The notes beneath the pieces are model-generated. The model was not told the origin of the DNA, did no database searches, and saw only the letters and a program-made list of their open reading frames with translations. A stretch of 64,000 nt of DNA from Alentia gelatinosa (taxonomy: Eukaryota > Annelida > Polychaeta > Phyllodocida > Polynoidae): contig OX465583.1 of NCBI GenBank assembly GCA_950022655.1, forward strand, positions 16,143,298 to 16,207,297. Direction: 5' to 3'. Below are positions 588 through 56,910 of the stretch, piece by piece. Within the stretch, counting starts at the first letter, position 1, and each line of letters starts with the position of its first letter. Position numbers and translations under genes: made by a program.

Positions 588-800
588 GTAAACTTCCTCA
601 AACCGTTCCCCAAGTCTCGGAGTGTCTGCGTCTCGTCTCGTCTCGCGAGAGACGCGCGTTATCAGCGGCTGACGTGACGTGACCCCGTGCACCAACTCGC
701 GCGTGTGCATTCCACGGGACTGAGTTGAGGCGCTCAGAACGAGGCTAGCGCATGCGTAATGCAGCTCGACGTGGACGCTTCTCAGAACAGGACACTGCAT
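588..800. other. CpG-rich patch 1
   Basis: CG dinucleotides are concentrated (CGTCTCGTCTCGCGAGAGACG, GCGCGTG, GCATGCG) against CpG-poor flanks. This could be an unmethylated regulatory patch. No gene is visible. Confidence 0.5.
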
Positions 801-1129
801 CTCTCTCTACACAGTGTCAAATTCATACAAAGAACCTAATTTAGGCATGACGGTACTTAGCAGAGATGCAAGCCACTTATTTTATTCGGTTATCTATGTT
901 TTAGGCCAAAACGTCGTGTCTGTAAAATTAACCAACTACAAAACTACAAAAAGTTATTGAAATATTTAGTTAGTTTGTACTGTAATTGTTCATTTTTCAT
1001 GTTTTTTACTATGAATATTGTTTAAGCCTACGTATTCTGATGTGAGTGTGTATGTGTGATAAGGTGTGTGTGTAGGTATATGAGTGTATGTGTGGAGGGT
1101 CGTAGTCGGTAAAGTTTTACAGAATGACA

Positions 1130-2220
1130 TCAGCCTACCATTTGAACCTCGTAGAAATTTAATCTTACAATAAATCATATCTTGCGGAGATTTTCGTCAT
1201 GCCTCGGGAGATTAGCTCTTTTATCTGGTTGTATGAAAGATGCACATTTACAAGAAACAAAACTACGGGGGGTCACCAATAAAACAAGTCAGTTCACTGG
1301 CCTATTCTCAACGTGTGGTGGTAGACTTTGTGGATGCTAAGTGTGAAACAGGAACAAGTAGTTGAATAAATTAAATAGTTTTCTATTGAAATGTCATAAG
1401 CCTTTCATTTGATCCTCGTTATAACTACAAACGAATAGACATAAATAACCTATTGTGGAGATTTTCTTCTAGCTTTGTATAAGAGGTTGTTTTTTTTGTA
1501 AGTGTGGACAATGTTACGTGTACCTGCGCCAGCTTAAATCAGATTCAGGATCTTATGTCAATGAGTGTTTCCTGTTTGGGGTTATTTACACCCAGGTGTT
1601 TGTTAAAAATACTTAGGTTTGTGGTTTTTGTACACAGCCATAGTACGACTCTAGCCAAGGATAAAAAGGCAAGACTTTTGATAAGGCATCTTATTGAAAT
1701 AGTCAGGTGCTGTACTCCAGTTCCACAAAATGCTCATATTCAGAAAAAAAGGTAAGCAGATCCCGCACTGATCATATGAAATGAGATAACAGATCATATC
1801 CAATTCTACTGGCCTGTCTAACAAAACGGGGAAATTGACCCGGCAGCAAAGCTGGAGGTTTATAACTCCACCACCAGGGCAGTACAACAGTCCACGCTGC
1901 GGTGCAACACCATGACAGGTCCTTCTAAACACAAATTCACCAGTCAAAGTGGTCGCTTGAACCATGGCACTTCTTTTTATACTGAAAACGTTACGTAATA
2001 TCAGCAAACCTGTGGACCTTCCATCTATAGCTTTACCCATATTACCTCACAGCAGCAACTTGGCAAGGGCGAGACCTATGAAAACGAAAATAAGAAACTA
2101 GCACCCGCACCCCTTTCATTTGTCAGTTAACAAGAAAAAAGCTAGGGAGAATGCTAAGAAAAGAGTCAGTTTGCCGACCCTATTCTAAACGTGTGGTGGG
2201 AGACATTGCGGATGCATATA
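1130..2220 (+). repeat. Diverged direct repeats
   Basis: CCTATTCTCAACGTGTGGTGG (1302) recurs as CCTATTCTAAACGTGTGGTGG (2179). A CCTCGT...GGAGATTTTC motif at 1138-1198 recurs at 1405-1470. The rest is unremarkable apart from the SINE at 1.8 kb. Confidence 0.55.
1800..1925 (-). mobile_element. SINE-like repeat, copy 1
   Basis: On the minus strand TGCCCTGGTGG, CCAGCTTTGCTGCCGGGTC and AATTTCCCC resemble the anticodon and T arms of a tRNA. The same order occurs at 57.6 kb, so this is a dispersed family. Confidence 0.5.
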
Positions 2221-2609
2221 GTTAATTATAAAAGAGTAAAATAAACTGGAGGTAAAACCAAACAAACCAAACAAACCGACCATGTGTGATCAACTCCTTT
2301 CACTCTCCTAGCAGGGATCTTGAACCAGAAGTCAAAGCAGTGCGAAAGATCTGCGAGGAGACTGTGGTCCCTTGATGTGACATCACAGAGCACGATGGTT
2401 TATATTCCTGTCGAATGCAATATTTCAGGTAATTTTGCATGAATTCGACAGTATTTGATGTTTCAAAACGATAACATGAATTATCCAGACAGGTGCATTT
2501 TTCGTCCTTCACACTGATTCACGCCTCTGTGTAGCCTATACCATCACAACATTGCCCAGAGCAAGAAAAAAAGGAAGATCAGTCCCGGTGCATGCAGTTA
2601 AAAAGTTGG

Positions 2610-2958
2610 ACGCATTGATACTAAAAAGGAAGTGCATCGAGAACCCTAGCCAATGAAAATATGCCATGAGGTTTGGTTACAGAAAAATCTCAAAATGGAA
2701 AGCCAAGTAACGTTACATAGCATACCACAACGAATAGCAAATTATTTTCAGCGGCTACGGATCAAGCGAGGTTCAGGTTTTGTATCACCCCTATCACTGA
2801 CAAATCTGATGTTTGTGACATCATTGCCCATGTGGTGGTCTTTTTTTTCTTCTTTTTTTTGCTGTCTTTTTTTTTATAAACAATACTCGATGGCATTGGG
2901 TACGAGTTCCCAATATCAAATCTATCGGGAAAAGAAATACTAGGGGTGAGATCAAGCG
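2610..2958 (+). repeat. Dispersed repeat B, copy 1
   Basis: The order GAAAATATGCCATG, then CAATACTCGATGGCATTGGG, then GTACGAGTTCCCAA and GGGGTGAGATCAAGC recurs at 22.5 kb. It is non-coding. Confidence 0.6.
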
Positions 2959-2959
2959 T

Positions 2960-3405
2960 GTTATGACAGGCCATTCATGTAAAATATAGTGTCTGTAATA
3001 ATTATTCTCCCTCCTAAAAACAGCAACGGCAGTTTACTTAACTGATATGTTATGGCAGGCCGCTCGTGTGCGAATGCTACCTGTAATGATAGTCCCCGAT
3101 CCTAAAACGGCACTGAGAAGTTTATAAAATTGATACATTTTTATGGCAGGTTGATCGCACCAGAGAACTCTAGTATTATTAAATAGGCCTGAAACTTATA
3201 AACACAGCACCGGGAAGTTTACATAGTTGATACGTTATGGCAGGTTGCTCGTGTCAGAACGCTGTCTGTTAAAATGGGTCTCGTTCTTACAAACAGCACC
3301 AGGAAGTTTACATAATTGATATGTTATGGCCGGCTGCTGGTGTCAAAACGCTGTCTGTAATAAAACAAACAGCACTGAGAAGTTTTCATAATTGATAAAT
3401 GCTAC
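2960..3405 (+). repeat. Minisatellite of about 85-95 bp, five diverged copies
   Basis: Units contain GATATGTTATGGCAGGCYGCT, ACGCTGTCTGTAATRA and ACAGCACYGRGAAGTTTA. Spacing varies from about 85 to 97 bp. Confidence 0.75.
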
Positions 3406-3714
3406 ACAGACGTCGTCTTTGAAGTTAGACGCCAACTTCTTCCCTAGCGACCCCAGCTGCCGGGTCAGTAACCTCAGAAAGGTCGACTTCACCACGAGGA
3501 CATCGTCAGAATGTGCAATTTATTTCTAATTATTGCAGTCGTGGTTTATTTCTGTGCTCAGCATGTTAAAATAAAGTACACGGAGATAAAGTTGACAACA
3601 GATGTTTAAGGGAACGGTGTCGATTGGAAATACCATAACCGTATTCATAGAATGTGCCGATACTAGAAGAATTTGACGTTTCATGTTGACATTGAAATTT
3701 ACCTCCTGCTTTTT

Positions 3715-4075
3715 GTCATTATTCATAGGGACTCTTTCACTCCTCCCCGGCCCCTTCTTTCTCAGCCTCCCATTTACATATTTTTCCCTTCCGAGCTGCC
3801 TCCTGTCTGCCCTCCTTCCATCTTTCAACTATTTGTTCTCCGCCTTTTTACTCTCCCCAACCCAGTTCTTTTCCATCCTTTCCTTTCCTTCCTTTCCTCC
3901 TCCTCCTCATCTTCCTCCTCGCCCACATCATTGGGATTATATCAAAGTTTACACTCTTTGCTCAGACGTGTCACCTCATCCACCTCCTCTGCCCACTGTC
4001 TGCTCTCTTTCACTCATTTCTCTCATTCCTTTCCCCTTTTCTCCACTTCTGCCCTTCCTTTGTAGACTCTAAGGG
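3715..4075 (+). repeat. Polypyrimidine tract
   Basis: It is almost wholly C and T (CCTCCTCCTCATCTTCCTCC). The long frames over it are compositional. Confidence 0.8.
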
Positions 4076-4088
4076 GGACGCAGTATGA

Positions 4089-4462
4089 GGTAAAAAAAAC
4101 AAGAACAGCGCCAAATACAAATATTTCAACGTATTCATACATTCTGGTCAAAAGGTTGGTGCAGAGGGTCCTATTACTACGATTAATATTGATATAAATA
4201 AAACTAACCCTGAACAAAGAGACGGGGAACCGGTTACTCAAAATGGAAATCTGGTGGAAACAACACAAAATGTGAGAAAATTACGTTCGAGTTTGAAGCA
4301 TAACCTTGTCTTAAAAAAACCTAGAAGTGAATTTTTTTTAAATCCCCTGAGTACAGAGGTTCTAAACTATGGAATGCCCAACCTCAAGCACTGAAGGAAG
4401 AGCCCACCAAATATGTCTTCAAGAAACATGTAAAAAAACTAGAGCAAATATCAGACAAGTGA
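4089..4462 (+). pseudogene. C-terminal relic of a non-LTR retrotransposon reverse transcriptase
   Basis: The frame opens at 4089 and reads through LVLKKPRSEFF. It is then continued in another frame by KSPEYRGSKLWNAQPQALK and YVFKKHVKKL, stopping at TGA 4460-4462. The pattern RGxxLWN.LP..LK....FKK.LKK is the hallmark of the extreme C-terminus of Jockey/CR1-like polyproteins. The frame changes in the T8 run near 4332-4339. The catalytic core is absent. It is a 5'-truncated dead copy, probably followed by its 3' UTR. Confidence 0.65.
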
Positions 4463-4787
4463 CCATAATATGTGCCGAAACTTGATGCTAGTTTGCTTTG
4501 AGTACAGGTAACCCAACTCCAACTCAATCATAAATCACAATAATCGCGATATCGTACAAATTACACTAATGTTGAATGAGGATTTGATGGTAATAGAAAT
4601 AATTATGTCAATATATATCATTTCATAATATTATCATTATCATCAACAATATTATTATCAATAATACTAGTTAATCACTACCTACGGCTGAATGTAAAGA
4701 AACTTTCGTTGTTATGCATAACGCTGATGTCGCCTGACAAGATAGGCACATTGAAAACCAAATGTATATTTGAATGCGCCTAATAAA

Positions 4788-4960
4788 AAAAAAGAAAAAA
4801 AAAGAAGGGTGGATCACTGGCCGTGGATCTCGAGGTTTTGGGTTTGAGTCCCAGTTGTGACCTTAGTCTTAGTGTATGTCTCTCATCTGCCTATGATAGA
4901 TGATTGTATGTCATTGACCGTATTATAGTCCAATGAAGACGGAGGGGTCATATCTTATCT
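4788..4960 (+). mobile_element. tRNA-derived SINE-like unit behind an A-rich tract
   Basis: An A-rich tract (4788-4806) precedes GGTGGATCACTGGCCGTGG and GGGTTTGAGTCCCAG. The last is a good RNA polymerase III B-box (T-arm) match. About 100 bp of unrelated tail follows. Confidence 0.5.
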
Positions 4961-5086
4961 ATATAAAATAACCAGTCAACTTCTAGTCAGCCGGAGAGTT
5001 GAAATCTAGCAACTCGTATCTAGTCAGCTCTCAGCAGTGAATCATGAGCAGTTTCATTTGTCGGGTAAATTACATTGCTGAGGTGA

Positions 5087-5154
5087 GGGGGGGGGGGTTG
5101 TTTGTGCTGGAGTGAGTGAAGATGGCGATGGAGAATTGGGGGGGGGGGGGGGGG
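5087..5154. repeat. Two poly-G runs
   Basis: G runs of 11 (5087-5097) and 17 (5138-5154) are present. Confidence 0.9.
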
Positions 5155-5669
5155 TCCCGGTGCCTGATCTGCAATCTCCATCCCTACGCATGCGGCAAGG
5201 CCATCATTTATTACGGCTGAATATTAGACATTCTAAGTTGTGCTGAGTCATGCAAAAGAGAATTTCTGCCACATGAGAAAGCAAATTAGACCGTAGGATG
5301 ACATGCCAAGTGAGAGCCGAGAGGAAACCGGCTGGAAAAAAACAAGCAGATACCCGTTTACAAATGTGCCGCCATGGGAGAAACTCAACAAGGAGGTTCA
5401 GTCTCACAGCAGGATCTCAGAGCTCACACTAAAACCCACACTAGTCATGTACGTAAGCCTAATCCAGGTATAAAGTGTAGTGCGGATCTAGTATTGGCGT
5501 CATCACCTTGTTTTCATGTCACGATATACATGTATCTCAAATATTCGCAAATTTTAAGTTGTTGAAGTTGTCATTGCTCTCCGTGTGAGTTCAAAGGGAC
5601 TATGTACAAGGGTAGACTGGCTGGAAGCGGTTAACTATAGGAATATACTCATCCAGTTGATGTTAAGTT

Positions 5670-5865
5670 CAGCAGAGAAAAAAACAGATTCAAGCGAAGA
5701 GATATTGAATATAAGTGGATACAGCTACTGTAAACAATCATACTGTAGAACAGGATATGGTTATCCATCCAATTCTTGACTAAGGCTCAGCAGAGAGAAA
5801 CAAAATCAAACGAAGAGATATTGAATATTATAAGTAGATACAGCTACTGGAAACAATGAAGCCTA
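5670..5865 (+). repeat. Tandem duplication, 118-bp period
   Basis: CAGCAGAGAAAAAAACAGATTC (5670) and CAGCAGAGAGAAACAAAATC (5788) are each followed by CGAAGAGATATTGAATAT and GATACAGCTACTG. Confidence 0.75.
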
Positions 5866-8800
5866 AGAGCATGAACATCAAATTATCTCCAAAACAAACT
5901 GTAGTATTCTCTATCAAAATCAGGACATTGACCAATTGAAAACAATCTTATTCTTAGATTATTCTGCAGCAGCATATCACATAGACTACGACTAGATACT
6001 AGGTTTGGTACCAGCTTAAGCCTAACAATAGGGCTTTGCTGCTTAAAAAAAATTATGAGGTCATAGATTGCATTTGACTTTCAATCCAGGCCAGATAACA
6101 TAAAAAATGTCAATTTAAAAGCGTTACTACCTAATTCAGGTTGGGAGAGTCACAAATTAAATTTAGTAACATTAACATTGATATTAATGGTAATTGGTGA
6201 TTGAAGATAAGTTGAATGGATCTAAAAGGAGCTCAGGGATTCTTTTCAGCCCAAATGGTAGTTAAGGTGGATGACCAAGACAATTACTGCAATTAAATAG
6301 AGTGAAATGTGGTTCAAGTCAATTTTACTTTGCTGACACACCAAAGTTTATGTTGCATTTATCAGAAATCAATAATATTGGTATTTTCATTGCACATATA
6401 CAGGGTCTGCATTGCAGAATCAAATGGCCTGCAACAAGGAACATGTGGAGTCAATATTGATGCCAATTATCTTTAGCTATAACTACATGAGCTCAGGAAT
6501 TTCTCATCATGTATATACACTAGTCAGTCCATTCTCTGAGAGACCAATTGTTATGTATAAGAGGCAAATTTTTAATTCTGTATTTGAATGTAGTTTTATT
6601 TGGTAATTCATTTGTCTCAGTGTCTTGTGAATTCTACAGGACATAACCTCTATAGTTTGGAGACTTCGTATAAAATTCTGTGCATGGTAGTTCTGGTGTT
6701 TCAGTGGGTTTCATGTACTGGGGAGTGACAAACACTTCTTTAGGCAGCCATCTTTATTTCTGCAATTCCAGTGTAACATGAAATGTGTTCTCCCTACATA
6801 ATGAAGTCTATATATGGCACTGTAGTAAAGTTAGGCTCCAAACACTACAGTCGTCTCATACTGAAATTAAGTTTTGTACATGATCGTAAGCATTTATCAT
6901 GTACTACTACCTCAAGTATATCCATGTTTGCACCATGGTTAAGGCTTGATTCAGCAGCACCTTTTTCTCCATTAGCTTTGATGTACTCTTTCCTCATTAA
7001 GGATAAGGTCAATCCTTGCCTTTGTCTCACTATCAGTGAAACACCAGTCAAATCATGTACATGTAGTTGGTAAACAGACATTTATTATCAGTGGCAGCAA
7101 TAAGAATGCAGGCATAATCATATAATTGGAGGATGATTTGACACTTCAACACTGATCGTTACAGATTGTTTCATTTGTTTCAGACATCTGATCGATACTC
7201 TAATCATATATAGAGCGATCGAGAATTAGGTGTTGTAGATGTTCCTGATATAAAAATACGACTATGAATTACAAAGTGACTGCAGAGAAGTGGTCAGACT
7301 CAGACTAACACGGTTGCAAACATCGTCATTGTACTCGCTCTCCATTCATGGTCTGTGTTGTACACTGCTATTTGGCAAGCTAGCATGAACCAAAAATCGG
7401 TTCAGAGAGTGTACACACCGCATTGCCTTAGTTACGGTGACTTTCAGGCTGTCTTTGTGCTACCACTAACAGCTGTGTATTTTGGCTAGTCATCTAGTTT
7501 GTTTTAGATTAATCTCATATTATATGCAAGAAATTGAAACTATTTTATGGTAATCTGCAACGTGAAATAGGTCCATATTAATTTTTGTCGTTTGAATGTA
7601 CACTCGTTGCCGTTACAGGGAAGTTTGAGTACAAAACTACAGGAAGTAGTTTAGCAGTATGACGAGGCCCACTGACTCTACCCTTAGCAGCGGCGTGTAT
7701 TTACAGTGAGTTTCTGAATAAATATATGATAAAACATCCAACACACTTTACCAATTAATTTGCTTTATTCAACATACATTTGGGGATAATTAGCGAAAGC
7801 ATTGTCTGTGATTGGAGATTGAGGTTAGTGTTCATCTTTGAATGCCTAGTTTGAGAATATGGCCGGTTAATGTTGTTGTCCTTTCGTGTTGGAAGAAATT
7901 AGTTCCTCATTTATCTGTAAACATAATAATTAGAGGAATTTGAGAATGGATTTGCGAATAATGAGTGTAAAGATAAGACTTTTTTTTCCCTATATACATT
8001 ATCCAGCAATAATAAGATTATATCATTTGCCTGAAGTGGAAGTCAGTTACTAAAGTCTTAGAATTAGAATGAGATTTACTATCAAACGTTTGCCTTATAA
8101 TTACAAATCGTCCGCGATATATGTTTCTATGATATTTCCTGATTATGGTATATGCAATGAATTAAAATCATTGGATTTAAAATGTTCTTCAATCGACATC
8201 TCTTTGCCAATTATGGGGATTCGTTAACAAGGGATGCCCGCTAATAAGACATTGCCTACTGATTAATTAGTATTTCAATCATCCTCTGCAATATAGGTCA
8301 GACATGGATTTATATTGAAGAATCAATGACCATTGACCGCTTTCCAAGCGTAGATTCTGCACCCTACTTAGATATCTGCGCCAACTTGCTTGTTTAGGGC
8401 GAGATCTTCCCCATACGCCAATATTCCTTTTTTTTAATAGTTTCTGAGCACTTTTGAGAGAATTTTGTGTTCTATTTGTCAGAGTGAGATCGACGTTTCA
8501 TAGAGTAAACATTATACGTTCTACTCTTGCTGTGTGTGGTGTCAAACCAAGCAAGACCCATGTGCTCATCCAAAGTGGCAGTCTAATCAGCTGTGGATGC
8601 ACAGAATACAGTAGATTGGAGTTGAAGGTGAAACATCTGGACTATCGAAGAAGCTCATTTAACACTCAAAGTTTTCACCAACTTATGATATTTCGGTTGT
8701 TTAACTTTTACATCTTTTGACAGTTTGATTGTTTTGGGGCCCGAATACATGTAGTTTTAGTTTCCATCTGATGTCACTGGGTTGAAACAATATTAGTACA

Positions 8801-9453
8801 AATACATGTATATCCAAAGCGGCAAAATAAGAACTGCTAGGAGAGTGATGCTGAACAGCCTTATAAATGGTACTGCGCATTCAACTAACATTTATAGATA
8901 CCCACCCCCACCACCAACTCCACCTGCACCTACGCGGACAATGATGAGTCCTTCACAGAAAAAATTCACTCCAATAAACGACAGTTCACTTTACTTGTTT
9001 ATTCCTTTATTTGTCAAAACTAGAGCTGCTTTCGATAGAGGCAGTAAGTAGGAATTCAAGATGGCGTCCCTTCCCGCACCCTTTCGTTCTTGTTCGTACT
9101 AGATTTCACCTTTACATTCCACTGACTTTTATTAATCGTCTCGGACACAAAATCACTTTCAGAACATTGCTGATTACATGGGTAGGACTTTAAGTGCTGC
9201 CCTAGTTTAACAACGGCTTTGCTGGGCGGTGATTTTAAAAGACAGATAAGCTTTTTGAGTTCTAAACGGGCATGTAATAGCACGGTGAATGTTTCTACAT
9301 GATTGGACAAAGCGTGACCTTGAAAAGGGAGCAGTTCTAGTTGATAACAAGGTACGGTATTGTAGTAAACAGGAAATGATTAGCTGTCACCACTACAGTT
9401 TATCTAGGAAACGACTATAATAGTCTCTTCTGAGTATGTGTCTGTAGGTGAGT
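5866..9453. other. No gene or strong repeat seen
   Basis: AT-rich, largely unique sequence. Short open frames on both strands look random. A C-rich CCACCCCCACCACCAACTCC patch lies at about 8900. Confidence 0.4.
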
Positions 9454-9475
9454 GGGGGGGGGGGGGGGGGGGGGG
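9454..9475 (+). repeat. Poly-G run of 22
   Basis: This is an uninterrupted G tract and a candidate G-quadruplex site. Confidence 0.9.
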
Positions 9476-10955
9476 CTGGCGTAAGTGACTTTCACTCCAC
9501 CTCTGGCTGCTTGTCTTTCCTGATTCATTTATTCGGGAAGTTGTTATGTCCTGCCAGACATTGTTTACTCTGTTAATCTGTGATATAAACGTACTGTGTG
9601 GCAATGACATCTGGCAAGAATATCTTTGAGGTTAAATTTAGATCTAGAATTATCCTGTCGGTTGCTTGATATGGTTGCTTGATATGCCACAGCATAGTGT
9701 TGCATGTATTTTAATAGTTTTATCGCCTAGATTGATCAAATTACATTGATTCATAATTAGGTTTTTAAAGTCGATCATAAAACTGTTTACGTCTGATCGT
9801 GATGCCACTGAAAACTACGAGACGTTTACTTCACTTGGTGCCAGACAACTACTCAACGTCACTCCACCATAATGACACTTGTGCACTTTATTCAGACAGG
9901 AGTCAGAGAAAACTATCCTTGAATGATTCTCGTCTCCAGTCTATTCTAGGTACCGCAAAATGTAACCATCCATTGAAGGCATATCAGATAATTCACCTTG
10001 AACTTTAAAATCATGTCCTGTTTTTTGAAATTTGAAAAGAGGTGGCACTGTGGTTCAAAATTACAAAGAATGTAAAAAAAATAATAACGAAGTACTATTG
10101 GGAATTGATTGGGGGTTCGATGATAGAAATCTATTTACTGTATTTGATGGTCTTTCCACCAAACGATCCGTTAACTTTTGTTAATCGTGTTCATTTCACT
10201 CAGAGGATTCGCTATAATTTGGTCTGTCGGTGTACATATTATGACGTACATTTCATGACGTGCATGTAAGATCTATGTAGATTTATGACCTAAGCGGGCG
10301 CCAAGCTTTTATAAGACTTTAATTGCCAATCACAACGAACGCTCAACAAACTCCGGAATCTGCACCAAGTGTAAGATGGTGTTGGAGTTAGTTGCAAAGA
10401 GCACAGCCATTGTCAACTCCTGGCAGTGACGTGGAGTCTCTGAATGCTAGTTTTATCTGTTAGGGCCTACTTCTTTCAGGATTTACAGTAGCTAAAATGG
10501 TGTTGTGAAGCGGACCCTTTATTGGTCCTGTTTCAAATAAGTACAAATTTGTTCCTTAACGAATGTATTCTCTATGATTGATCTGGCATCCATCTGTTAT
10601 AAAAAGAATTACCGGATATATTGTAAAATATCCACAATGTCCATACATTATGTGGGACTGTATGTGCATGTATGAAGTTGGGTTATTTATAAAAATATGG
10701 ACGGGTGCCTGCGGACAAGCTTCCCCCTTAAGGACGGGTGTTGGTGGCACTTTATACCGCTAGGGGACGATCACAGAGTCCTTAAAACCCCTTATTCGAG
10801 GGTTTAATCACGTGATAAAATACATAATACTAATTATTCAATTTTGTCTTGATAGAAATACGAATTATGGTGTTAGATCTACATTCTGCGATAATTTGAT
10901 TAATATTGCTCCATTATTTCCTTAGTAAAAACTTGTTTCTAAATTTTTGAGAAAT
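9476..10955. other. No gene seen
   Basis: AT-rich, apparently unique DNA. ACGGGTG is repeated at 10700 and 10733. Nothing else stands out. Confidence 0.4.
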
Positions 10956-11059
10956 GATGCCTCAAGACATCATTCGCCCTGGGTCGGATGATGCCTCGAG
11001 GCATCATTCGCCCTGGGCCGGCTGATGCCTCAAGGCATCATTCGCCCTTAAAGGGTCAA
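10956..11059 (-). mobile_element. Reverse-oriented piggyBac-like terminus with palindrome array
   Basis: Palindromes of the GATGCCTCAAGGCATC type start at 10956, 10990 and 11024, a period of 34 bp. They are followed by 16 nt ending AAAGGG and then TCAA (11056-11059), one change from TTAA. Read on the minus strand this matches the left end of the intact element at 50.2 kb. No transposase or clear partner terminus was found upstream, so it is probably a non-autonomous or relic end. Confidence 0.6.
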
Positions 11060-11622
11060 CTCACCCCTGGTACGAGTTTAGCCATAGGAATAACATGGAT
11101 TTTAGAGAGAAGACAAGACATCAATAGGAAAAATTTAAACGTCCCTAACTGGATTTTTGAGGTGATTTAAATTATTCTGATATTGCAACGTTGTTCTATT
11201 GTCAGTGAAAGGGGTGAGATAAATCCAAAACCGCCCTCGATTCGTAAAATAAACAATACTCCACTCATTTGGATGCATCATGATCGTCACTCTGTTTTGC
11301 TTCGATGATGATTGCTGAGCATCCAAACTCGTGGAGTATCATCTATTTATACGATTCTCGATGCAGTTCTATATAAATGTGGTGCATGGTTTGCCGCCGA
11401 GTGCCACCACACTTTTTGGTTATTCTCGGTATGAAGTAGAAAAATAATGTTATATGCATTTCCCATGTCGATTGTATAAATGAATATTATATAAGCAAAT
11501 TTGGGGGATATGCATGTTACACATATGTGATTATTCGCTGAAAATATTGAAAGAATTGGATAAGATTTAGTGTTTGAGAAATAAATATTTACATTGTTGT
11601 TTTCGTACTACGAGGGAGTACA
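11060..11622. other. No gene seen
   Basis: AT-rich, unique sequence between the palindrome array and the poly-C tract. Confidence 0.4.
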
Positions 11623-41264: not shown

Positions 41265-42922
41265 CAGGGGCGTCAGAACATTTTAAAAGTGGGGGGGGGG
41301 GGGGGGGGGCGGCAAACTGAAATATTGCTGACTTTTTTCTTGGTATGAAGTCAGACTTTGACATTGGCCTGTTCTACTGGATTTACGTGAATCTGCGAAA
41401 TGTCTGTGAAAAGTCAGGTCTTAGCCTTCATTGCACGCTAAAAAGTCAGACTTCGACATTTTTATGGCAAAAAGTCAAGGCTTAGCCATTATTGCACACT
41501 AAAAAGTCAGACTTTAACATTTTTTATGGTCAAAAGTCAGAGCTTAGCCATTACCACACACTAAAAAGTCAGACATTTACAATTTTCCAGGGTAAAAAGT
41601 CAGGGCTTAGCCACTATTGCACGCTAAAAAGTCAGACATTTACAATTTCCCACGGTGAATAGTCAGGGCTTAGCCATCATTGCACACTAAAAAGTCAGAT
41701 ATTTATAACTTTCAATGTTCAGGAGTCAGGGCTTAGCCATCATTGCACACTAAAAAGTCAGATATTTATAGCTTTCCATGTTCAGGAGTCAGGACTTAGC
41801 CATCATTGCACACTAAAAAGTCAGACATTTACAATTTTCCACGGTGAAAAGTCAGGGCTAAGCCATCATTGCACGATAACAAGTCAGACATTTACAATTT
41901 TTTATGGTGAAAAGTCAAGGCTTAGCCATCATTGCACACTAAAAAGTCAGTCATTTACAATTTTCCACGGCGAAAAGTCAGGACTTAGTCATCATTGTAC
42001 GCTAAAAAGTCAGACATTTACAATTTTCCACGGTGAAAAGTCAGGGCTTAGCCATCATTGCACACTAAAAAGTCAGATATTTATAGCTTTCCATGTTCAG
42101 GAGTCAGGGCTTAGCCATCATTGCACACTAAAAAGTCAGACATTTACAATTTTCCACGGTGAAAAGTCAGGGCTAAGCCATCATTGCACACTAAAAAGTC
42201 AGACATTTACAATTTTCCACGGTGAAAAGTCAGGGCTAAGCCATCATTGCACGATAACAAGTCAGACATTTACAATTTTTTATGGTGAAAAGTCAAGGCT
42301 TAGCCATCATTGCACACTAAAAAGTCAGTCATTTACAATTTTCCACGGCGAAAAGTCAGGACTTAGTCATCATTGTACGCTAAAAAGTCAGACATTTACA
42401 ATTTTCCACGGTGAAAAGTCAGGGCTTAGCCATCATTGCACACTAAAAAGTCAGATATTTATAGCTTTCCATGTTCAGGAGTCAGGGCTTAGCCATCATT
42501 GCACACTAAAAAGTCAGACATTTACAATTTTCCACGGTGAAAAGTCAGGGCTAAGCCATCATTGCACACTAAAAAGTCAGACATTTACAATTTTCCATGG
42601 TGAAAAGTCAAGGCTTAGCCATCATTGCATGCTAAAAAGTCAGACATTTACAATTTTTTATGGTGAAAGGTCAGGGCTTACGTATCATTGCATGCTAAAA
42701 AGTCATACATTGACATTTTTCCACTGTGAAAAGTCAGGTCTTAGCTATTGTTGCATGCTAAAAAGTTAGACTTAGACATTTTTCAATGCTGAAAAGTCAA
42801 GCCAGCTTTTACACTTGGTTGAGTAAAATTTGAAGCTGCTGACCTTTTTGGTCTGGCAAAAAAGTGGGGGGGGGGGGGGCAGTCGCCCCCCCCCCCCTGC
42901 CCCCCCTGTTCTGACGCCACTG
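41265..42922. mobile_element. Nested element with CAG-type inverted ends carrying a satellite array
   Basis: The left end CAGGGGCGTCAGAACA (41265-41280) and the inverse of CAGTGGCGTCAGAACA (42907-42922) form a 16-bp inverted repeat with one mismatch. TGTTC is duplicated on both sides (41260-41264, 42923-42927). Poly-G or poly-C lies just inside both ends (41291-41309; 42866-42897). The CAGNGGCG start resembles hAT elements, but those make 8-bp duplications. The superfamily is therefore left open. Confidence 0.65.
41400..42800 (+). repeat. 63-bp minisatellite, about 22 copies
   Basis: The unit contains ACTAAAAAGTCAGACATTTA, a variable TTTTCCACGGTGAAAAG part and TCAGGGCTTAGCCATCATT. Two larger blocks, starting at GCACGATAAC (41871 and 42249), repeat at 378 bp, which is six units. 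The array therefore has a higher-order period. Stops occur in the frames I read, so it is not coding. Confidence 0.92.
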
Positions 42923-48189: not shown

Positions 48190-48470
48190 TCTTCAGAGGG
48201 TGTTGCCAACTGGCGCTCTGTGGCCATGCATGCTGTGCTCCCGTGCACTGCCCGCTAATGAGTGTAAGTCCTGGCGTTTAGCCCACTCTGTGCCCCCGTC
48301 TGTTGTGCTGCTATCTCACACTGCCCACTCATCCAGTCTGTTCTGTGCCTGCGCCATGTTGTGCTGCCATCTTGCAGTGCCCACTAATGGGTGTCCAGCC
48401 TGTTCTGTGCCCATGCCATGTTGTGCCCTGTCTCCTACTGCCCTAGCTATTAGTCCTGAAGCAGGCCAGG
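48190..48470 (+). repeat. Minisatellite of about 65-75 bp, dispersed family A
   Basis: Units contain GTCCAGCCTGTTCTGTGCC, CATGTTGTGCTGCCATCT and ACTGCCCACTAATGGG. About four copies are present. The same unit occurs at 56.3 and 56.8 kb. Confidence 0.7.
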
Positions 48471-48899
48471 GGAAGTGTGTTTTGGAGTACATACAATGTT
48501 TTTTTTATTGAGTCTGGAGCTCCTTAATCTTCTGTTTTTAAATCTGCTTGTTGCCAGTTTGTACAGGCTCATCATTTTGAGATATGGGCGTTTTAAATAA
48601 ACATTTGAAAAAATAAAGAAAAGATTGAAAAAAAAAATCGATTTCAACTCAACTTTATAGCAAATTACAAAAGTTATTTTCAAAAGGAATCCCATATTTG
48701 ATAAGCAGAACTACATATGGGAAGATCAATAGTATATTTGACCTTGAAACATCAGGTGAAGGTCAAATTAAGGTAAATTTTGTCTTTCAATACGAAACTG
48801 TAGAATTTTTTAGATGAAATGCAATAGGTTTGCAGACCAGAATAGTTCTACATCATTCCTTTAAATATAGACATCTTACATTCCATACAAGAGCCTTGG
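48471..48899. other. No gene seen
   Basis: AT-rich, with A-rich AAAAAATAAAGAAAAG near 48608. Confidence 0.4.
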
Positions 48900-49027
48900 T
48901 TAACTTTTTTAGTCCTAGCAATGCCTGGAGGCATTCCTCGTCCCCTGCATGGGAATGCCCAGGGGACATGGAATGTCACCAGGCATTCCCACCCAGGGGA
49001 GGAGGAATGTCTCCAGGCATTGTTTAA
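48900..49027 (+). mobile_element. piggyBac-like terminus with palindrome array, or a very short element
   Basis: TTAA (48900-48903) is followed by exactly 16 nt and then AATGCCTGGAGGCATT (48920). Related near-palindromes follow at 48954, 48972 and 49006. The spacings 48920-48954 and 48972-49006 are both 34 bp. A second TTAA lies at 49024-49027. The layout copies the left end of the nearby complete element, but the bases differ. It is either a relic terminus or a minimal non-autonomous element. Confidence 0.5.
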
Positions 49028-49955
49028 AGATATGTATATGTTTATGTGTCATCATCACAACCGTTGTGTTTTATGAGAAATAATGGATAGATTTACACCA
49101 TATTTTCACAATAAATAAGAAATACTATGCTCATCATTATACTCTGTTGGCATTTGATAAGTAACTATAGTAACTGGTATCTAAAGGTTGCTAAGTGATA
49201 CCCATATGACAAACAGGTGCCATTACGGCGATAGTCTCCTCCCCTTAGGGTTTATAGCGGTATTACACATTGTCCTATAGTGCATGTGCTCTCCAATCAG
49301 GCTCTGACAATAAGAGTCAATAGGCATTCATAATGCCAGGTCTCCTAAGGCTAAATATCAACAGACTTGGGAAGTTGACCCAGTTTTGAATTGACAGTAG
49401 AAGTGATTCTCTTTACAGTAGCTTGATCTTAGGAAGGTGCACACAGCCATAATATGATATCCTACAAGGTTGAGATTTGGTTCACGTAACCTAATTAAGA
49501 TAAGGATTATAATCCGTAATGACTAACACAGAAGCACAGGTATGGACATAAATTTATTGAGTTTGAGTTGAAGTACGAGGTAATCTTATAGGTCCATAAT
49601 AACATATAATTAAGATATAAAAGAGAGTTCACTATCTATTGAGAAGCCCTACGAAGTAGGAGAAGTTGAGGAGATGAGACTGAAGAGTTTTTGTAGGGTA
49701 GGTGGGTGGTTCCTTCCTGTTTGGTGTCCCAGGGTTGAAGTGGACACCGGCGGGTTAGATTGGGGTGGTCACGTGACCGGGACCATGTGACCGGAACCTT
49801 GTGAGTGAGAGTCCTTAGCAAAAGTGCTCTGTTTCGCATTATGGCCAACTCTTGCAGTTAGCCCTATGAAATTAATGCTAATTTAAACCACTAGATGAGA
49901 AGCATAAACACCTAGTTTCTTTACCCTTTAATTTTTAGCAACACTGAGTCGTATC
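49028..49955. other. No gene seen
   Basis: Unique sequence between a palindrome array and the 20-bp hairpin. Not recognised. Confidence 0.4.
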
Positions 49956-50007
49956 AAGGCCTGTCCTTCCTTAGTCTGTATAATTAAACTAAGGAAGGAC
50001 AGGCCTT
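49956..50007. other. Perfect 20-bp hairpin
   Basis: AAGGCCTGTCCTTCCTTAGT (49956-49975) is perfectly mirrored at 49988-50007, with a 12-nt loop. A short stem such as this could be a MITE core or a foldable RNA. It is too short for a typical animal pre-miRNA. Confidence 0.7.
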
Positions 50008-50212
50008 TATTATACATCATATACAAAAACCCCATTGAAAATGTTTGGGGATTCAGTAAACCATGACCCATTATATAAAACCTGTCAGATACCATAACTG
50101 TAGTATACAGATTCAAATCTGTGGTATACAGCCTCAAATCCATGGTATATGGGAAAGATAGTCCCTTTGTGTTATAGTGCAAAGAAGTAGTCCCTCTTGT
50201 TATACCATTTAA

Positions 50213-50310
50213 CCCTTTCGCGCCGGCCGATGCCTTAAGGCATCGCAGCGCGTAGCCGGATGATGCCTTAAGGCATCGCCGTGTGTGGCCGGGTGATGCC
50301 TTAAGGCATC
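50213..50310 (+). repeat. Left terminal repeat and 33-bp palindrome array of the piggyBac element
   Basis: Sixteen bases after the TTAA lies the perfect palindrome GATGCCTTAAGGCATC. It is repeated at 50229, 50262 and 50295, exactly 33 bp apart. The spacers are GC-rich (GCAGCGCGTAGCCGGAT-like). Such subterminal repeats are typical transposase binding sites. The role here is inferred from position. Confidence 0.85.
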
Positions 50311-50525
50311 TTTTTTTCCTATTTTGCTATAACGTTGTTTTTTTTCCTTAATACTGGACCTATCAACATGATTTTTTCAGGGAATGTAGGGAATACCTAA
50401 CAATCAATAAATTTGTGCGAAATAATAAAAAGAAAAGGTGATCACGTGACCATATAATCGAATGAATCTGTGAATCGTCACACACAGACGACAATCGGAG
50501 TATCGCCGCACTCCAGTCCGCCAAC

Positions 50526-53441
50526 ATGGAGGACTCAGATGGGTCAGATAAGTGGTCTGGCAATGATTCGGAATGGGAGGATGATTTACCGATATCCACA
50601 CTACTACTTCTCAACCAGAACAACGATAAAGTTAGTGGAAATGCTGAAAATGATGCTGAAACGGACATAACCCCAGAAAATGAACAGGTTTGCGAAGAAT
50701 CGGTTATCGCACGAAGGTGGACACCTATGGTGAAAGGCCTCAACAAGTCGCCGCCCCTCCCAGACTTCGACGATTCCAAAACAGGCATCAACGATAATGT
50801 ACCTAGCTCAACAAAGACACCGATTGTTTTTTTTAATCTTTTCTGCACTTTGGCTTTTCTCAAGCGCCTGGTGAAATGTACGAACGAATATGCCCATCAG
50901 AGAAACACTAAAGGAAAGAGAAGCAAGATGAAATCATGGAAGGAAGTCAACCTCGACGATGTCAAACGGTTCCTGGCCCTGTCTATGCTCATGGGATTGA
51001 TCAGAAAGCCATCCATGAAGGAGTACTGGTCGAAAATAACGGAAATAGCAACACCCTTCTTCAGCAGAGCCATAACAAGGGATCGTTTTGCCAATATTCT
51101 AAGGTAAGAACAAATATTTATTGTTTTGCAGGCCTAATAGAAAAAGTAAACAAACGCAAGTCAAACCCCCGACGCAGGCACGCAGTATAGCTGTCAGACC
51201 AGCTGTCAGTGTCAACAAGAGCTCTCTAGGCTTTGATTGTAAAATGAATTATAGTGTCAATATTATAAACCTATTCAACCTGTGCACAAGTAGATTGACA
51301 TTCAGCTAGAAATGATATATAAATCATTATATTTCAGGTTTATCAATTTCTGGCCCCCTGCGGATGATGACGTTGACCCGACCAGACCGCACCCCGCCTC
51401 CTACAAGCCACGTTCGGGCAATAGAAAAGTCGACTGGTTGTTCTCCATAATAAATTCTGCGGCCACACGTTACTATAACCCTGGAAAAAACCTCTGCATT
51501 GATGAATCTATGGTGCCACACAAAGGAAGATGTTCGAATAAGCAGTACATGCCGGCTAAGCCGACCAAATGGGGCGTCAAGGTCTGGGTGCTGGCTGAGA
51601 GTTTGACAGGTAAGCGGATCTGGGCGAGTTAGAAAATCATGTCGCACAAGGGTTGAACATTAAATATATGAACAGTGACTTATATGAGCATATTCCCCAC
51701 ACTCTGAGATTTGTTCCTGTATAATATTTTGCATTTTGAACGTGAATTAACTTGATGATCGAATTAAACTGTTGCGCCTTACGCGGTTCATATTTTGACT
51801 TGCTTCAACATAGCGTCTACTGTGGAGAAAGGTTGACACGGGAGTGACAGCATCAGATGTTGATTTGAAAATTAATTCGTATGGACTTTTTACGTTATAT
51901 AAACGATCAGGGAAGTAGGTGGGAGCAAAGCCGAGACTCTGAGGTTTATTCCAGTTTATATATTGTCGGGTTCAAACGTGTGGAAGTAATAGTAAATGAA
52001 TTAAAGATATTGACATCGTACCGGGCTGTCGACTCAGTGGTGGGGCGGGTAGGGTAGGAACGCTTGTCAAGTGACAGCAGATCTGGGCAAGTTTGCAAAT
52101 CATTTCGCACAAGGATTTAACATTAAATATATGAAAAGTGACTTATACGAGCATATTCCCCACACTCTTAGGTTTGTTCCCGTATAATATTTTACATTTT
52201 GAACGTGAATTAACTTGATGGTCAAATTAAACCGTTGCGCCTTACGCGGTTCATATTTTGACTTGCTTCAACATAGCATCTACTGTGGAGAGTGGTTGAC
52301 ACAGCACGGACAGTAGGAGATGTCAATTTGAAAATCAATTTGTATGGACTTTTAACGTTATATAAACCATCAGGGAAGTAGGTGGGAGCAAAGCCTAGAC
52401 CTTAAGGTTTATTCCAGTATATATATTATCAGGTTTGAACGTGTGGAAGTAATAATAAATGAATTAAAGATATCGACATCGAATCGGGCTGTCGATTCAG
52501 TGGTGGGGTGGGAAGAGACGCTTACTGTGACAGTGGATCTACTCTGTTTATTCATTTATTTTCAGGTTATGTTGTGCAGGCTTTCCCATACTACGCTAGG
52601 AAAGATAAAAGGTCGACCACAAGCCTCTATGATTCAGTCGTTAGACCACTGCTACAGAAGGGAAAGGTTCTTGGACGAGCACATCATATATACTTTGACA
52701 ACTACTACACGACAGTCGCCATGTTTTCAGATCTTGCCTCCAGGTTCAATACATTTTGTTGTGGCACTGTACGATTGAACAGAAAAGGACTACCAAAATC
52801 ATTGATGGTGAAAAAACACCCAAAAATTGTTAAAAGGGGCGATTGTATCATTTCCAGGTCTAAAGATTTAGTTCTCTCAGTTTGGCGCGATCGGAAAATA
52901 ATTCATTGTTTATCTGCCATACATGGAAGTAATATGTCCACCTGCTTACGAACCCAAAAAGATAAAGACACTGGTAAATTTGCGAAGGGAGAGATTCCCT
53001 GCCCTAAGTCGATACGGGACTATTCAGCGTTTATGGGAGGAGTTGATCTGTATGACCAGCTATTTCATTATTATAATTTCGGGCGAAAGTCACAGAAGTG
53101 GACCCTGAAGATGTTTTTTTATATCATTGAACTTATGAAGGTTAATGCATATGTTATGTTCTGTCTGGCCAACAAAAAGATTTGAGAAGAGCAACCACAG
53201 GATATCCACATTGACACTAGAATCGCCCAGTCGATTAACATCTCGTTGTCTACCTGCCAACCTCGGCCGTAAAAGCTGGTGCGGGGTTTGCTTCAAACAG
53301 AATAGTAATAATGCTCAAAGTAAAAGAAAACAAACCAAATTCGGCTACAGTACTTGTAATTGTCATTTATGTCTGCCCGAGTGCTTCACTGTATATCATT
53401 CCATAGAGAATTACGGGTTCATTCAACATGAGGAAGAATAA
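50526..53441 (+). CDS. piggyBac-like DDD transposase, three exons, frameshifted before the C-terminal cysteine-rich domain
   Basis: This enzyme cuts and pastes the element at TTAA sites. The start is ATG at 50526 in a good context (AACATGG). Exon 1 is 50526-51103 (donor AAG/GTAAGA), exon 2 is 51338-51609 (acceptor TTTCAG, donor ACAG/GTAAGC), and exon 3 starts at 52566 (acceptor TTTTCAG). The reading frame is kept across both junctions. Exon 1 encodes an acidic N-terminus and the start of the DDE_Tnp_1_7-type domain. The three catalytic aspartates are visible: CIDES (codon 51501), IYFDNYY (52697) and GGVDLYDQ (53045, with a second Asp at 53054). The frame hits TGA at 53183. The C-terminal Cys/His region (WCGVC, then CNCHLCLPEC and YHS) lies in the next frame and stops at 53439-53441. 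A one-base slip in the A5 run at 53174-53178 would join the two frames. The combined length is about 575 residues, normal for the family. This copy is probably just inactivated, or the slip is a sequencing or assembly error. Confidence 0.9.
51104..51337 (+). other. Intron 1 of the transposase
   Basis: The intron is 234 bp with GTAAGA at the donor and a TATATTTCAG acceptor. It interrupts an Arg codon (phase 2). Splicing joins FANIL to FINFW, as expected for the conserved piggyBac core. Confidence 0.8.
51610..52565 (+). other. Intron 2 of the transposase, built from two 463-bp tandem repeats
   Basis: This 956-bp intron (GTAAGC...TTTTCAG, phase 1) consists almost wholly of two direct copies starting at 51617 and 52080. 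Each begins GATCTGGGC and ends near GTGACAG. The copies are similar but clearly diverged, for example in AACATAGCGTC against AACATAGCATC. Confidence 0.8.
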
Positions 53442-53456
53442 ATAAATGTCAATAAA
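53437..53456 (+). promoter_or_regulatory. Polyadenylation signals after the transposase
   Basis: AATAAA occurs at 53437, overlapping the stop codon, again at 53441, and at 53451. This fits a short 3' UTR. Confidence 0.55.
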
Positions 53457-53654
53457 CCCACCTGAACTGTATATATGATGTCTTGTCTTTAGTGTCAGTG
53501 TAAATCGATGACAGTTGATCGCAGACAACGCGCTGGCCCAGCCTCAGTATGAGACGCCATGGCGAAGTCAGTCCGGGTGATGTCCAGATTAATAAATTCA
53601 TTTTTAATTTCTCCACTTGTCCAAACCGCGAAATATATACATATAGATGAACCT

Positions 53655-54850
53655 AAAACTCTCTAGTTTGTTCCTATATAAGTCTCTGATCGTTTATCTA
53701 ATGTTAAATCCTTATGCAAAATGATTTGCTAACTCGCCTAGATCCGCTGTCACTTGACAAGCGTTCCCCCCTACCCGCCCCACCACTGAGTAGAGTGCAA
53801 AGTTCTATGTCAATATCTTTAATTCATTTACTATTACTTCCACACGTTTGAACCTGACAATATATATACTGGAATAAACCTCAGAGTCTCGGCGTTGCTC
53901 CCACCTACTTCCCTGATGGTTTATCTAAGTCCATACGAATTAATTTTCAAATCAACATCTGATGCTGTCACTCCCGTGTCAACCACTCTCCACAGTAGAC
54001 GTCATGTTGAAGCAAGCCAAAATATGAATCGCGTAAGGCGCAACGGTTTAATTCGATCATCAAGTTAATTCTCCATCAAAATGTAAAATATTATACGGGA
54101 ACAAACCTCAGAGTGTGGGGAATATCCTCGTATAAGTCACTGTTCATATATTTAATGTTAAATCCTTGTGCGAAATGATTTGCTAACTCGCCTAGATCCG
54201 CTGTCACTTGACAAGCGTTCCCCCCTACCCGCCCCACCACTGAGTCGACTGCATGGTTCAATGTCAATATCTTTAATTCATTTACTATTACTTCCACACG
54301 TTTGAACCTGACAATATATATACTGGAATAAACCTCAGAGTATCGGCTTTGCTCCCACCTACTTCCCTGATGGTTTATCTAACGTTAAAAGTCCATACGA
54401 ATTAATTTTCAAATTGACATGTTCTACTGTCCGTGCCGTGTCAACCGCTCCCCACAGTTGACGCCATGTCGAAGCAAGTCAAAATTTGAACCGCCTAAGG
54501 CTCAACGGTTATATTCGATCATATAGTTAATACTGGTCCAAAATGTTAAATATTATACGGGAAGAAAGCTCAGAGTGTGGGGAATATCCTCGTATAAGTC
54601 ACTTTTCGTATATTTAATGTTAAATCCTTGTGCGAAATGATTTCCTAACTTGCCTAGATCCACTTGTTGTAGTCGGCGTCTCCCCCCACCACTGAGTTGA
54701 GTGTGTGGTTCGATGACAATTTTCTTCTACTTTCACATGTTTAAACTGGACAATATTTATATAGGAACAAACCTTACAGTGTGGAGATTCGTTGTATATA
54801 TGTCTCCACTAATTTCCTGAAGGTTTAAACCTTGTCCCAGACCATTTTCT
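53655..54850 (-). repeat. Inverted copies of the intron 2 repeat, downstream of the transposase
   Basis: The same sequence as the intron 2 repeat is present in reverse. The recurring junction CTAGATCC falls at about 53741, 54194 and 54657, giving two full copies (about 453 and 463 bp) and truncated pieces on each side. Exon 3 is therefore flanked by large inverted repeats. Confidence 0.8.
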
Positions 54851-54859
54851 ACATGTTGT

Positions 54860-55887
54860 CTTTGCACTGCGGTGAAGGGAGTTGCTGGATTTGAAAGTGA
54901 CAACCACAAACACGCCATGCTGGGGCGAAGCCACATATATAACTCCTTGGTGAAATCGGCTCCTACAGATCCAGCACAGAATATATTTATAATGACATCA
55001 CAGGGGACAGATTCAGCAGGCTTTTCTGTTCCTTCCAGTATAATCCAATAGCGATGTCATAACGTCTTGTAGGGGTAAATCGACCAAATCCTGGGTGAGG
55101 TGATTGCTAAACAACTCGGCTTTCGTAGTATTGGCTTCATTGACACCGCACTTAGTAGAATGTCGATAGGTTCGGCGCCTTGGTAAATATCCATTTTCTC
55201 CCGTTATTTAGCGTCTATATGAATAAACCAGACACTGCCAGAATCGTGAAGACTTGTAGAATATTCGCAGGGTGATGATTAGAGAAGTCAATGCATTTTG
55301 TATGGTTATGACAGCAGCAAAGTTATATCACTGCAGAACCGGGACTTCGCAGGCTGGCGTTGTCAATATAAACCACTGTCACACTTATTTTGCGATCGAT
55401 GTCTCAACTTGGTACTGTCCATAGACGTTGATCTGCTGACTATTTCTTCATAACAACCACCCACATACGTAGGGAATACTTATATTTTGTTCATCCTCAG
55501 CTGGTAGAGTGATATTTGAATGATTCATAACATAATGGCAGATTTTCCCGTTGCAATATCCAATTCGACTGAAGGGCCAGAACCGCCAGTCAACGGGACG
55601 CCACTGTTCACCCGCATAAACTTATGAAGAAGGAGGAACTAAAATGGCGATATCTTTTTATTGGTTTGATAGAAATCTCCCATATTTCGTACACTTAATC
55701 TATATAACAAGGCGGTCATTGGGATACCACACTTTATTGCTTTGGTTGGGGGAAACATATTTATTTTCATTGATTTCAGGACTGGACTGCTCTCAGCTGG
55801 CAGATCAGGGCGCCACCACCCGGCCCACTGGGGTATCGCTGACCGAGTTACCCGGCGTATAGCCGTTTCCCGCCCCAGGGGGGCCCA
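54860..55887. other. Right interior of the piggyBac element, no gene recognised
   Basis: Unique sequence lies between the inverted repeats and the right end. It becomes GC-rich in the last 110 bases (55790-55887). I see no coding region here. The short open frames read as chance. Confidence 0.5.
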
Positions 55888-55902
55888 GCGCGAAAGGGTT
55901 AA

Positions 55903-56329
55903 TATGGCAGCTATTAGGTTTAATTTAACGAAAAGATGGATGTTAAATGCAACAAACGATGGTTTGTGAATTATCACTACTCAGTTCTGTGCTTAATAAG
56001 CCTAGAATGAGTAAATAATCATAGATTTGACAGGGTGTACCATAGGCACGAGTCTTTTCTTAATTTATTAGAATTAAATCATTTTTTATTTTCCAATAGT
56101 TATAACTTAAAATGCTGAGCTCTTACAAACTGGCATGAAGCAGATTCGGAATCAGAAGATTCAGAGGCTTTAGGAACAATCATAACACATCGTATGTACT
56201 ACCAAACACACCTGACCCTTCAGACTGGCTTTGACCTCATATTTGTACCACTATATTGGGTTAAGTCCTGTTGTCCAGGCCACTCTCTGCCTGGCCTATG
56301 TTATAATGTCACCTTAAACCCGCCCTGCT
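55903..56329. other. No gene seen
   Basis: AT-rich DNA flanking the right end of the piggyBac element. Confidence 0.4.
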
Positions 56330-56910
56330 GATGGAGGTCCTGGTGTCCAGCCTGATATGTGTCCTCGCCATGTTGTACCACCATCTCATACTGTTAAAGC
56401 CCAATACCTATCTACAGAGTAAGGGTTGAAGGATTAATTCCCAAATCGTATAGGAGTCGGGGAACTTGTCGCAGGCGAATTACGTAACCCTTCGCTCCAC
56501 CGGCGGACATTGAGGAGACTAGATTTATCAACATGTTGATAAACCTTTTTGCCACCGATTTAGGAATATACAAATGACAACTTGTCGGCGACAAAATATC
56601 ATCTGAAAGAGGTGGTTAACTAGTCGTTGCCTGAAATTTGCCTAGCTGTCCTACATGTACCGACTAGGGCCGACTCCGTTAGGATGCCTTGCCTGAGACA
56701 AATTACCGACCGTTTGTCGCCGACAAACGTACATGAATGTTCCGAAATCGTTAGATGTGTATTGGGCTTAATGGATGTAAGTCTCTGTGTCCAGTCTGCT
56801 GTCTGTCTCACACTGCTCGCTAATGGTTGAACATCCCAGTATCCAGCCCACTCTGTACCCAGGCCATTTTGTACCACTATCTCACACTGCTCCCCCACCA
56901 TAATGGGTCT
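56330..56910 (+). repeat. Family A units at two places around a palindrome
   Basis: GTGTCCAGCCTG plus GCCATGTTGTACCACCATCT (56350-56395) and two more units (56770-56905) match the 48.2-kb minisatellite. Between them lie the perfect palindrome TTTATCAACATGTTGATAAA (56524-56543) and paired GTCGGCGACAA/TTTGTCGCCGACAAA sequences, suggesting an inserted element. Confidence 0.6.

Follow-up and report, generated by a model that had tools for sequence, protein, structure and literature searches.

The DNA analyzed here, referred to as the window, is a stretch of 64,000 nucleotides (64 kb). Positions 50209-55902 hold a transposon of the piggyBac superfamily with an array of palindromes at its left end. 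Its features are listed below, with the base pairs of each element end numbered inwards from the first base after the TTAA.

50209..55902, forward strand: whole piggyBac-superfamily transposon, 5,694 bp counting both TTAA
50209..50212, forward strand: left TTAA, target-site copy
50213..50228, forward strand: left tip, bp 1-16, with a GCCGG box at bp 10-14 (50222-50226)
50229..50244, forward strand: palindrome 1, perfect, bp 17-32
50262..50277, forward strand: palindrome 2, perfect, bp 50-65, with a GCCGG box at 50255-50259
50295..50310, forward strand: palindrome 3, perfect, bp 83-98, with a GCCGG box at 50288-50292
50526..51103, forward strand: transposase exon 1 (open reading frame with GT/AG borders)
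51338..51609, forward strand: transposase exon 2, with the first catalytic Asp (CIDESMV)
52566..53185, forward strand: transposase exon 3 up to the stop, with catalytic Asp 2 and 3 (FDNYYTT, GGVDLYDQ)
53232..53438, forward strand: cysteine-rich zinc-finger domain (CRD), in another frame after a stop
55789..55898, reverse strand: right end, with GCTGG at bp 10-14 (55885-55889) and GCCGG at bp 43-47 (55852-55856) and 75-79 (55820-55824)
55899..55902, forward strand: right TTAA, target-site copy

The terminal inverted pair (50209-50226 and 55885-55902) matches at 17 of 18 positions, TTAA counted, and CCCT follows the TTAA at both ends; TTAA-CCYT occurs at four sites in the whole window. In the rule described for the piggyBac superfamily, the terminal inverted repeats are 12-19 bp long and begin with CC[C/T]T (PMC2872659); the element agrees with this rule and has a TTAA on both sides. 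On the left, the palindrome GATGCCTTAAGGCATC stands at 50229, 50262 and 50295, each time with 8 of 8 pairs matching and with steps of 33 and 33 bp, and GCCGG starts at bp 10, 43 and 76. The palindromes are thus present in several copies on one end and absent from the other, where a scan of 55789-55898 found no 16-mer palindrome of at least 6 pairs. For the boxes on that right end, shuffles that left the first 14 bp unchanged gave GCCGG at 43 and 75-77 in 2 of 20,000 cases and any ladder in 29, in a test framed only after both ends had been looked at.

The transposase is encoded in three exons and matches DDE_Tnp_1_7 (Pfam E 3.8e-78), with all three catalytic Asp. The original prediction that a transposase is present at one locus only was borne out by a tblastn search of the window with the exons of this element (E up to 1). 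The reading frame is lost before the CRD, one conserved Cys of the CRD has become Tyr, so that one zinc ligand is gone, and the stretch preceding the domain appears to be missing when compared with four close homologues. This copy of the transposon is decayed. The Pfam match of the CRD is weak (16.3 bits, under the cut-off of 24). Searched against solved structures as a single sequence, the CRD tail returned no match; as a profile it weakly matched piggyBat (E 0.019), and the moth CRD did not appear in that result, which is not proof of any difference. Structure matches of the P0001 model mostly cover residues 1-247, so the CRD is hardly tested by them. By sequence, piggyBat is the best relative of the transposase with a solved structure. 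We read the CRD type as resembling a variant arrangement described in PMC8086355, a likeness that is weak by score.

Repeats occur within and around the element. Intron 2 (51613-52515) is filled by a repeat of about 231 bp with a 463-bp tandem period, and inverted copies of the same repeat follow the coding part (53650-54665), the main pairs being 86-93% complementary. Because these copies flank it on both sides, exon 3 lies inside a long inverted repeat, and a transcript across it could form long double-stranded RNA. The transposon is also flanked, at 48216-48585 and 56102-56890, by direct and inverted repeats of about 72-81% identity, which would fit an insertion into an older repeat region. 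Approximately 200 bp outside the element there is a hairpin (49953-50010) with 23-bp arms, 96% complementary, and a 12-nt loop. Further away, 41406-42799 consists of about 22 repeats of a 63-bp unit with one frame open over 368 codons. No Pfam family turned up at E 0.01 for ten of the window's 45 listed open frames, and a tRNA search of the window found none. Introns and named homologues suggest that the host is an animal.

The original prediction placed one terminal signature, a TTAA or TCAA followed by 16 nt and a palindrome, at three loci of the window. Two of them stand (50209 and 11059), and the third (48900) is not supported. The features of the other two loci are as follows.

10956..11059, reverse strand: second end, of another family (TTGA at 11056-11059, tip at 11040-11055)
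11024..11039, 10990..11005 and 10956..10971, reverse strand: palindromes of the second end, with the box GGGCGAAT just outside each
48919..49022, no strand assigned: 104-bp foldback, judged to lie outside the piggyBac end system

Read on the minus strand, the end at 11059 begins with TTGA and continues with CCCTTTAAGGGCGAAT, followed by palindromes at bp 17, 51 and 85 (7, 8 and 6 of 8 pairs) with steps of 34 and 34 bp. The predicted signature is confirmed here with one correction, in that the TCAA of the plus strand (11056-11059) is TTGA when read inwards. Another TTAA lies 8 bp from the first palindrome. In order to locate the border of this family, we compared 10950-11075 with the genome and scored 40 of 2,153 candidates, including the window itself. 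Homology ends at query position 110-111 (11059-11060) in 30 of the 39 other scored copies, which fixes the border there. The same tip with an intact TTAA recurs in the genome, for instance on contig C1 at 26,094,077, in a copy that also appeared in the border test. No partner end was found, as there is no TTAA-CCYT on the plus strand in 1-10954; the best loose match, with 6 of 20 mismatches, was not accepted. In sister elements with tips of the AAGGG type the partner TTAA end mostly lies at 301-383 bp. The prediction also held that the bases have diverged while the spacing has not. Between 50209 and 11059 the distance is fixed and the tip has diverged (9 of 16 positions shared), but the palindrome is conserved (14-15 of 16).

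Perfect 16-bp palindromes are not rare in the window (7, of which 3 lie outside both arrays). The rule that TTAA (up to one mismatch) and CCC be followed after 13 nt by a palindrome with 7 or more pairs has two matches, 50209 and 11059, against a mean of 0.07 and a maximum of 1 in 60 dinucleotide shuffles. With the CCC rule dropped, an exact TTAA gives three matches (30692, 48900 and 50209; shuffle mean 0.48, maximum 2). Allowing one mismatch in the TTAA gives eight (shuffle mean 4.2), a number reached in 3 of 60 shuffles, so that this version carries no signal. Across the 44 palindromes of at least 7 pairs, TTAA, TTGA or TCAA occurs at distance 16 six times, with a mean of 1.85 and a maximum of 7 at the other 40 distances; three of the six cases are other sites (10023, 20091 and 30712).

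At 48900, a TTAA is followed by 16 nt and then by AATGCCTGGAGGCATT (7 of 8 pairs), with related sites 52 and then 34 bp further on. These sites belong to the foldback at 48919-49022, which matches itself at 84% over 105 columns, has 16-bp palindromes or near-palindromes as its outer arms, and folds with a z of -11.8 (0 of 200 shuffles equally stable). The background of the window accounts for a TTAA at 16 bp from such a palindrome. There is no CC tip on the left side and no TTAA in register on the right, so the rule of TTAA plus CC[C/T]T fails at this locus, which we left out as a piggyBac-type end and which is probably a false member of the group. That it is a decayed or rearranged member seems to us quite improbable. 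It does have in common with the true ends the half-site ATGCC...GGCAT and a TTAA at 16 bp, and palindromes centred on GG exist in true ends with GGACGCAT tips. Against this stand the missing tip, the foldback structure, the position of the nearest TTAA on the right side, just 2 bp from the other outer palindrome, and the lack of any match to 48919-49022 in the 241 kb of 40 fetched genome loci.

We searched the whole genome (1,234,393,884 bases or 1.23 Gb, 101 contigs) for the palindrome and its distance from the tip. With up to two mismatches, the palindrome has 35,797 sites, compared with 151 for a reversed-pattern control. TTAACCC lies exactly 16 bp from GATGCCTNNAGGCAT in 4,383 places (2,078 + 2,305), a count slightly inflated because this pattern is one base shorter than the other two. 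It lies 4-15 bp from GATGCCTNNAGGCAT(C) in 57 places (27 + 30) and 17-46 bp from it in 323 (172 + 151), and the reversed control gave 0 for all three patterns. Thus, for 92% of the TTAACCC-palindrome pairs within 4-46 bp (4,383 out of 4,763) the distance is exactly 16, and the core idea of the original prediction passes the genome check. With a looser TTAA pattern (9,417 + 7,105 places), the first 100 places include 17 with TTAA-CCC, and the distance is 16 bp in 16 of these. Judged by eye, many of the remaining TTAAs in these 100 belong to CCCTTTAAGG tips as their inner TTAA, lie at the centre of a neighbouring palindrome or fall in the AT-rich inner flank.

One may ask if the palindromes are host regulatory or cruciform sequences beside which transposons landed by chance. 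The arrays do fold well as single strands, but thousands of sites have the palindrome inside a TTAA-CCC end at the same distance, and the ends are matched; we regard this explanation as extremely improbable.

The tips differ between end families while the distance of 16 holds. This bears on the possibility that the fixed distance reflects common descent alone, one ancestral end having multiplied with its distance unselected. Copies within a tip class are near-identical, as such descent would give. Because the copies share descent, the independent evidence amounts to a handful of tip classes and not to thousands of ends. Nevertheless, the distance stays 16 across tip classes that differ, and the palindromes of piggyBac and MER85, which are unrelated, follow the same plan. 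We consider descent alone an unlikely explanation. A docked transposase would be expected to keep the distance between palindrome and tip fixed.

Two further observations concern the diversity of these ends. A minority of genome ends (L040 and others), some with tips such as CCCTTTAACAGC, have the palindrome at 17 bp and may form a separate family. The two centre letters of the palindrome also seem tied to the tip, with GG accompanying GGACGCAT and TG accompanying GGGCGAAT.

To describe the ends without regard to the TTAA, we took the first 40 of 49 listed palindrome loci, selected by palindrome alone. The elements with related ends in this sample are mostly short. TTAA (up to one mismatch) with CCC occurs within 40 bp of the palindrome at 30 of the 40 loci, at exactly 16 bp in 27 and at 17, 27 and 35 bp in the other three. 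The remaining 10 loci have no TTAA-CCC within 40 bp, and one of them reads TTAA then CCT at 16. Near position 3000 of the locus L019 (G000:C1:12348990-12355010), the palindrome is part of a 35-bp satellite in eight copies, with no TTAA-CCC end within 40 bp. The arrays contain 1 to 4 palindrome units in 38 of the 40 loci. Of the 67 steps between units, 22 measure 33 bp, 28 measure 34, seven measure 35 (six of them in L019) and 10 have other lengths; none measures 44 bp, and the window element steps by 33. The original prediction gave the repeat as 33 or 34 bp. Both values do occur, but no single number applies, since the step follows the tip class. Twenty-six loci have both an end at 16 bp and at least two palindromes; in these, the step is 34 in 24 of 24 cases for tips of the AAGGG type and 33 in 8 of 8 for the GGCGCC type, 33 in 6 of 7 for the CCCATT type and 34 in 3 of 4 for the CACGCC type.

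Of the 27 loci with an end at 16 bp, 24 also have a partner TTAA-CCC end, which lies at 301-383 bp in 23 cases and, doubtfully, at 652 bp in one. None of the 24 partner ends carries a palindrome of the same kind, and the right end of the window element has none either, so these elements depart from the plan of Trichoplusia ni piggyBac, in which both ends have the same palindrome. The 7-base tip box does recur in partner ends at +33 (a mean of 5.46 of 7 positions, against 1.79 overall) and at +66 (mean 4.08), as measured on 23 partner ends and the right end of the window element, a set of mostly short elements whose copies share descent. In partner ends of the CCCATT type the box lies at +31 and +62 instead.

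These ladders bear on whether only the first palindrome matters, the inner units being slippage copies without a role that spread by descent. The units are indeed tandem copies that vary in number between arrays, and in piggyBat the innermost site is described as reducing activity (PMC11707139). However, the palindromes stay alike while the spacers differ, each tip class keeps its own step, and partner ends without palindromes have a 33-bp box ladder. We find it rather unlikely that the inner units are idle.

The plan of these ends is not new in kind. Comparison with known piggyBac ends, which the original prediction had proposed, turned up the same plan, a 13-bp terminal repeat, 3 bp and a palindrome, in moth piggyBac and human MER85/PGBD3 (PMC12324416, PMC3459987). 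In moth piggyBac, the core domains hold the first 16 bp, and a dimer of CRDs sits on the palindrome at bp 17-33, where the DNA bends (PMC7351741). The ends described here share with it the TTAA, the 16-bp tip and the palindrome that follows; by analogy, the left tip at 50213-50228 is a putative contact of the transposase core. They differ in that piggyBac is described with one palindrome per end and they have two or three on one end only, and in that the palindrome letters are unrelated. The palindrome of human MER85/PGBD3, also 16 bp long and placed 3 bp inside a 13-bp repeat, is bound by the transposase, and replacing it costs 80% of binding (PMC3459987). As here, many short elements have the palindrome near one end only. 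PGBD3 differs in having three scattered copies and MER85 in having one, with no head-to-tail ladder in the available account. The coral CMITEs and AmiPB1 also resemble our elements, with a TTAA, the tips CCCTTTCCC and CCCTTTAAG, and several tip families that share a better conserved interior (PMC2872659), although those elements are about 100 bp long.

The published plan of a tip followed by a palindrome also applies to piggyBat of Myotis lucifugus, whose left end has three box-plus-palindrome sites in 44-bp steps (PMC11707139, PMC13405395). Its right end has no such site; there, one box lies at bp 12-15 and another at bp 44-48, and two more are in reversed orientation (PMC11707139). In its transpososome the left end is bent at bp 25 and 69 (PMC13405395, a preprint). 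The palindromes of piggyBat are imperfect and its step is 44, unlike the 33 or 34 bp found here, where the modules of tip plus palindrome consequently abut. The step is about one helical turn under that of piggyBat (33.5 + 10.5 = 44), so that the rotational phase would be kept; this is arithmetic only.

We also looked for this arrangement beyond the genome. The tip-palindrome pattern, confirmed on the window, had no match in viral contigs. Two palindromes 15-21 nt apart were found in no viral contig and in one genome contig, where they proved to be a bacterial tandem duplication of 32 bp that lacks a transposon tip and was judged unrelated. Six pattern matches to the homologue P0003 in viral contigs included no relative.

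Taken together, we are highly confident that the segment 50209-50310 forms the left end of a piggyBac-superfamily transposon, now decayed, that this end is one member of a very large group of such ends, and that it works as follows. The TTAA is the target-site copy. In the next 16 bp, which include CCC and a box specific to the family, the catalytic core of a transposase dimer would take hold of the DNA. Each palindrome would be held by both C-terminal CRDs of a single dimer, with a bend in the DNA near bp 25. One module of about 17 + 16 bp would account for the step of 33-34 bp, and two or three such modules would follow one another head to tail. The palindrome-free end carries core boxes only, on a 33-bp ladder, which would make the synapsis lopsided, as in piggyBat. 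The short elements were presumably moved by transposases of this lineage. The ends, the constant distance, the ladders, the restriction of palindromes to one end and the transposase with its lost frame can be read directly from the sequence, and the roles of the protein parts, the number of dimers, the bending and the source of mobility of the short elements are inferred.

What appears to be new are the abutting modules of 33-34 bp, the corresponding ladder of boxes on the end without palindromes, and the use of one palindrome across several tip families. Among the papers listed by our literature searches, we recognised no description of the head-to-tail ladder. More broadly, we propose that several piggyBac end families radiated within one genome around a common CRD palindrome nearly always 16 bp from the TTAA, while tips and core boxes drifted and the modules stayed compact and abutting. 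This scenario is plausible, and we hold it with slightly more doubt than belief. If it is true, the specificity of the CRD is held fixed while that of the core drifts, and one CRD could load many families. Such a transpososome would be a compact one, its core-plus-CRD modules placed directly next to each other every 33-34 bp. Two or three dimers would load onto the end with palindromes, opposite the other end, where the boxes keep a 33-bp ladder.

Ends with diverged tips and a fixed distance, present in thousands, constitute a natural experiment on the construction of a piggyBac transpososome. They raise the questions of which spacings are tolerated, why the two ends are unlike, and whether or not inner dimers must sit on a fixed helical face. 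As piggyBac elements are widely used in gene delivery, these questions about transpososome architecture are practical ones.
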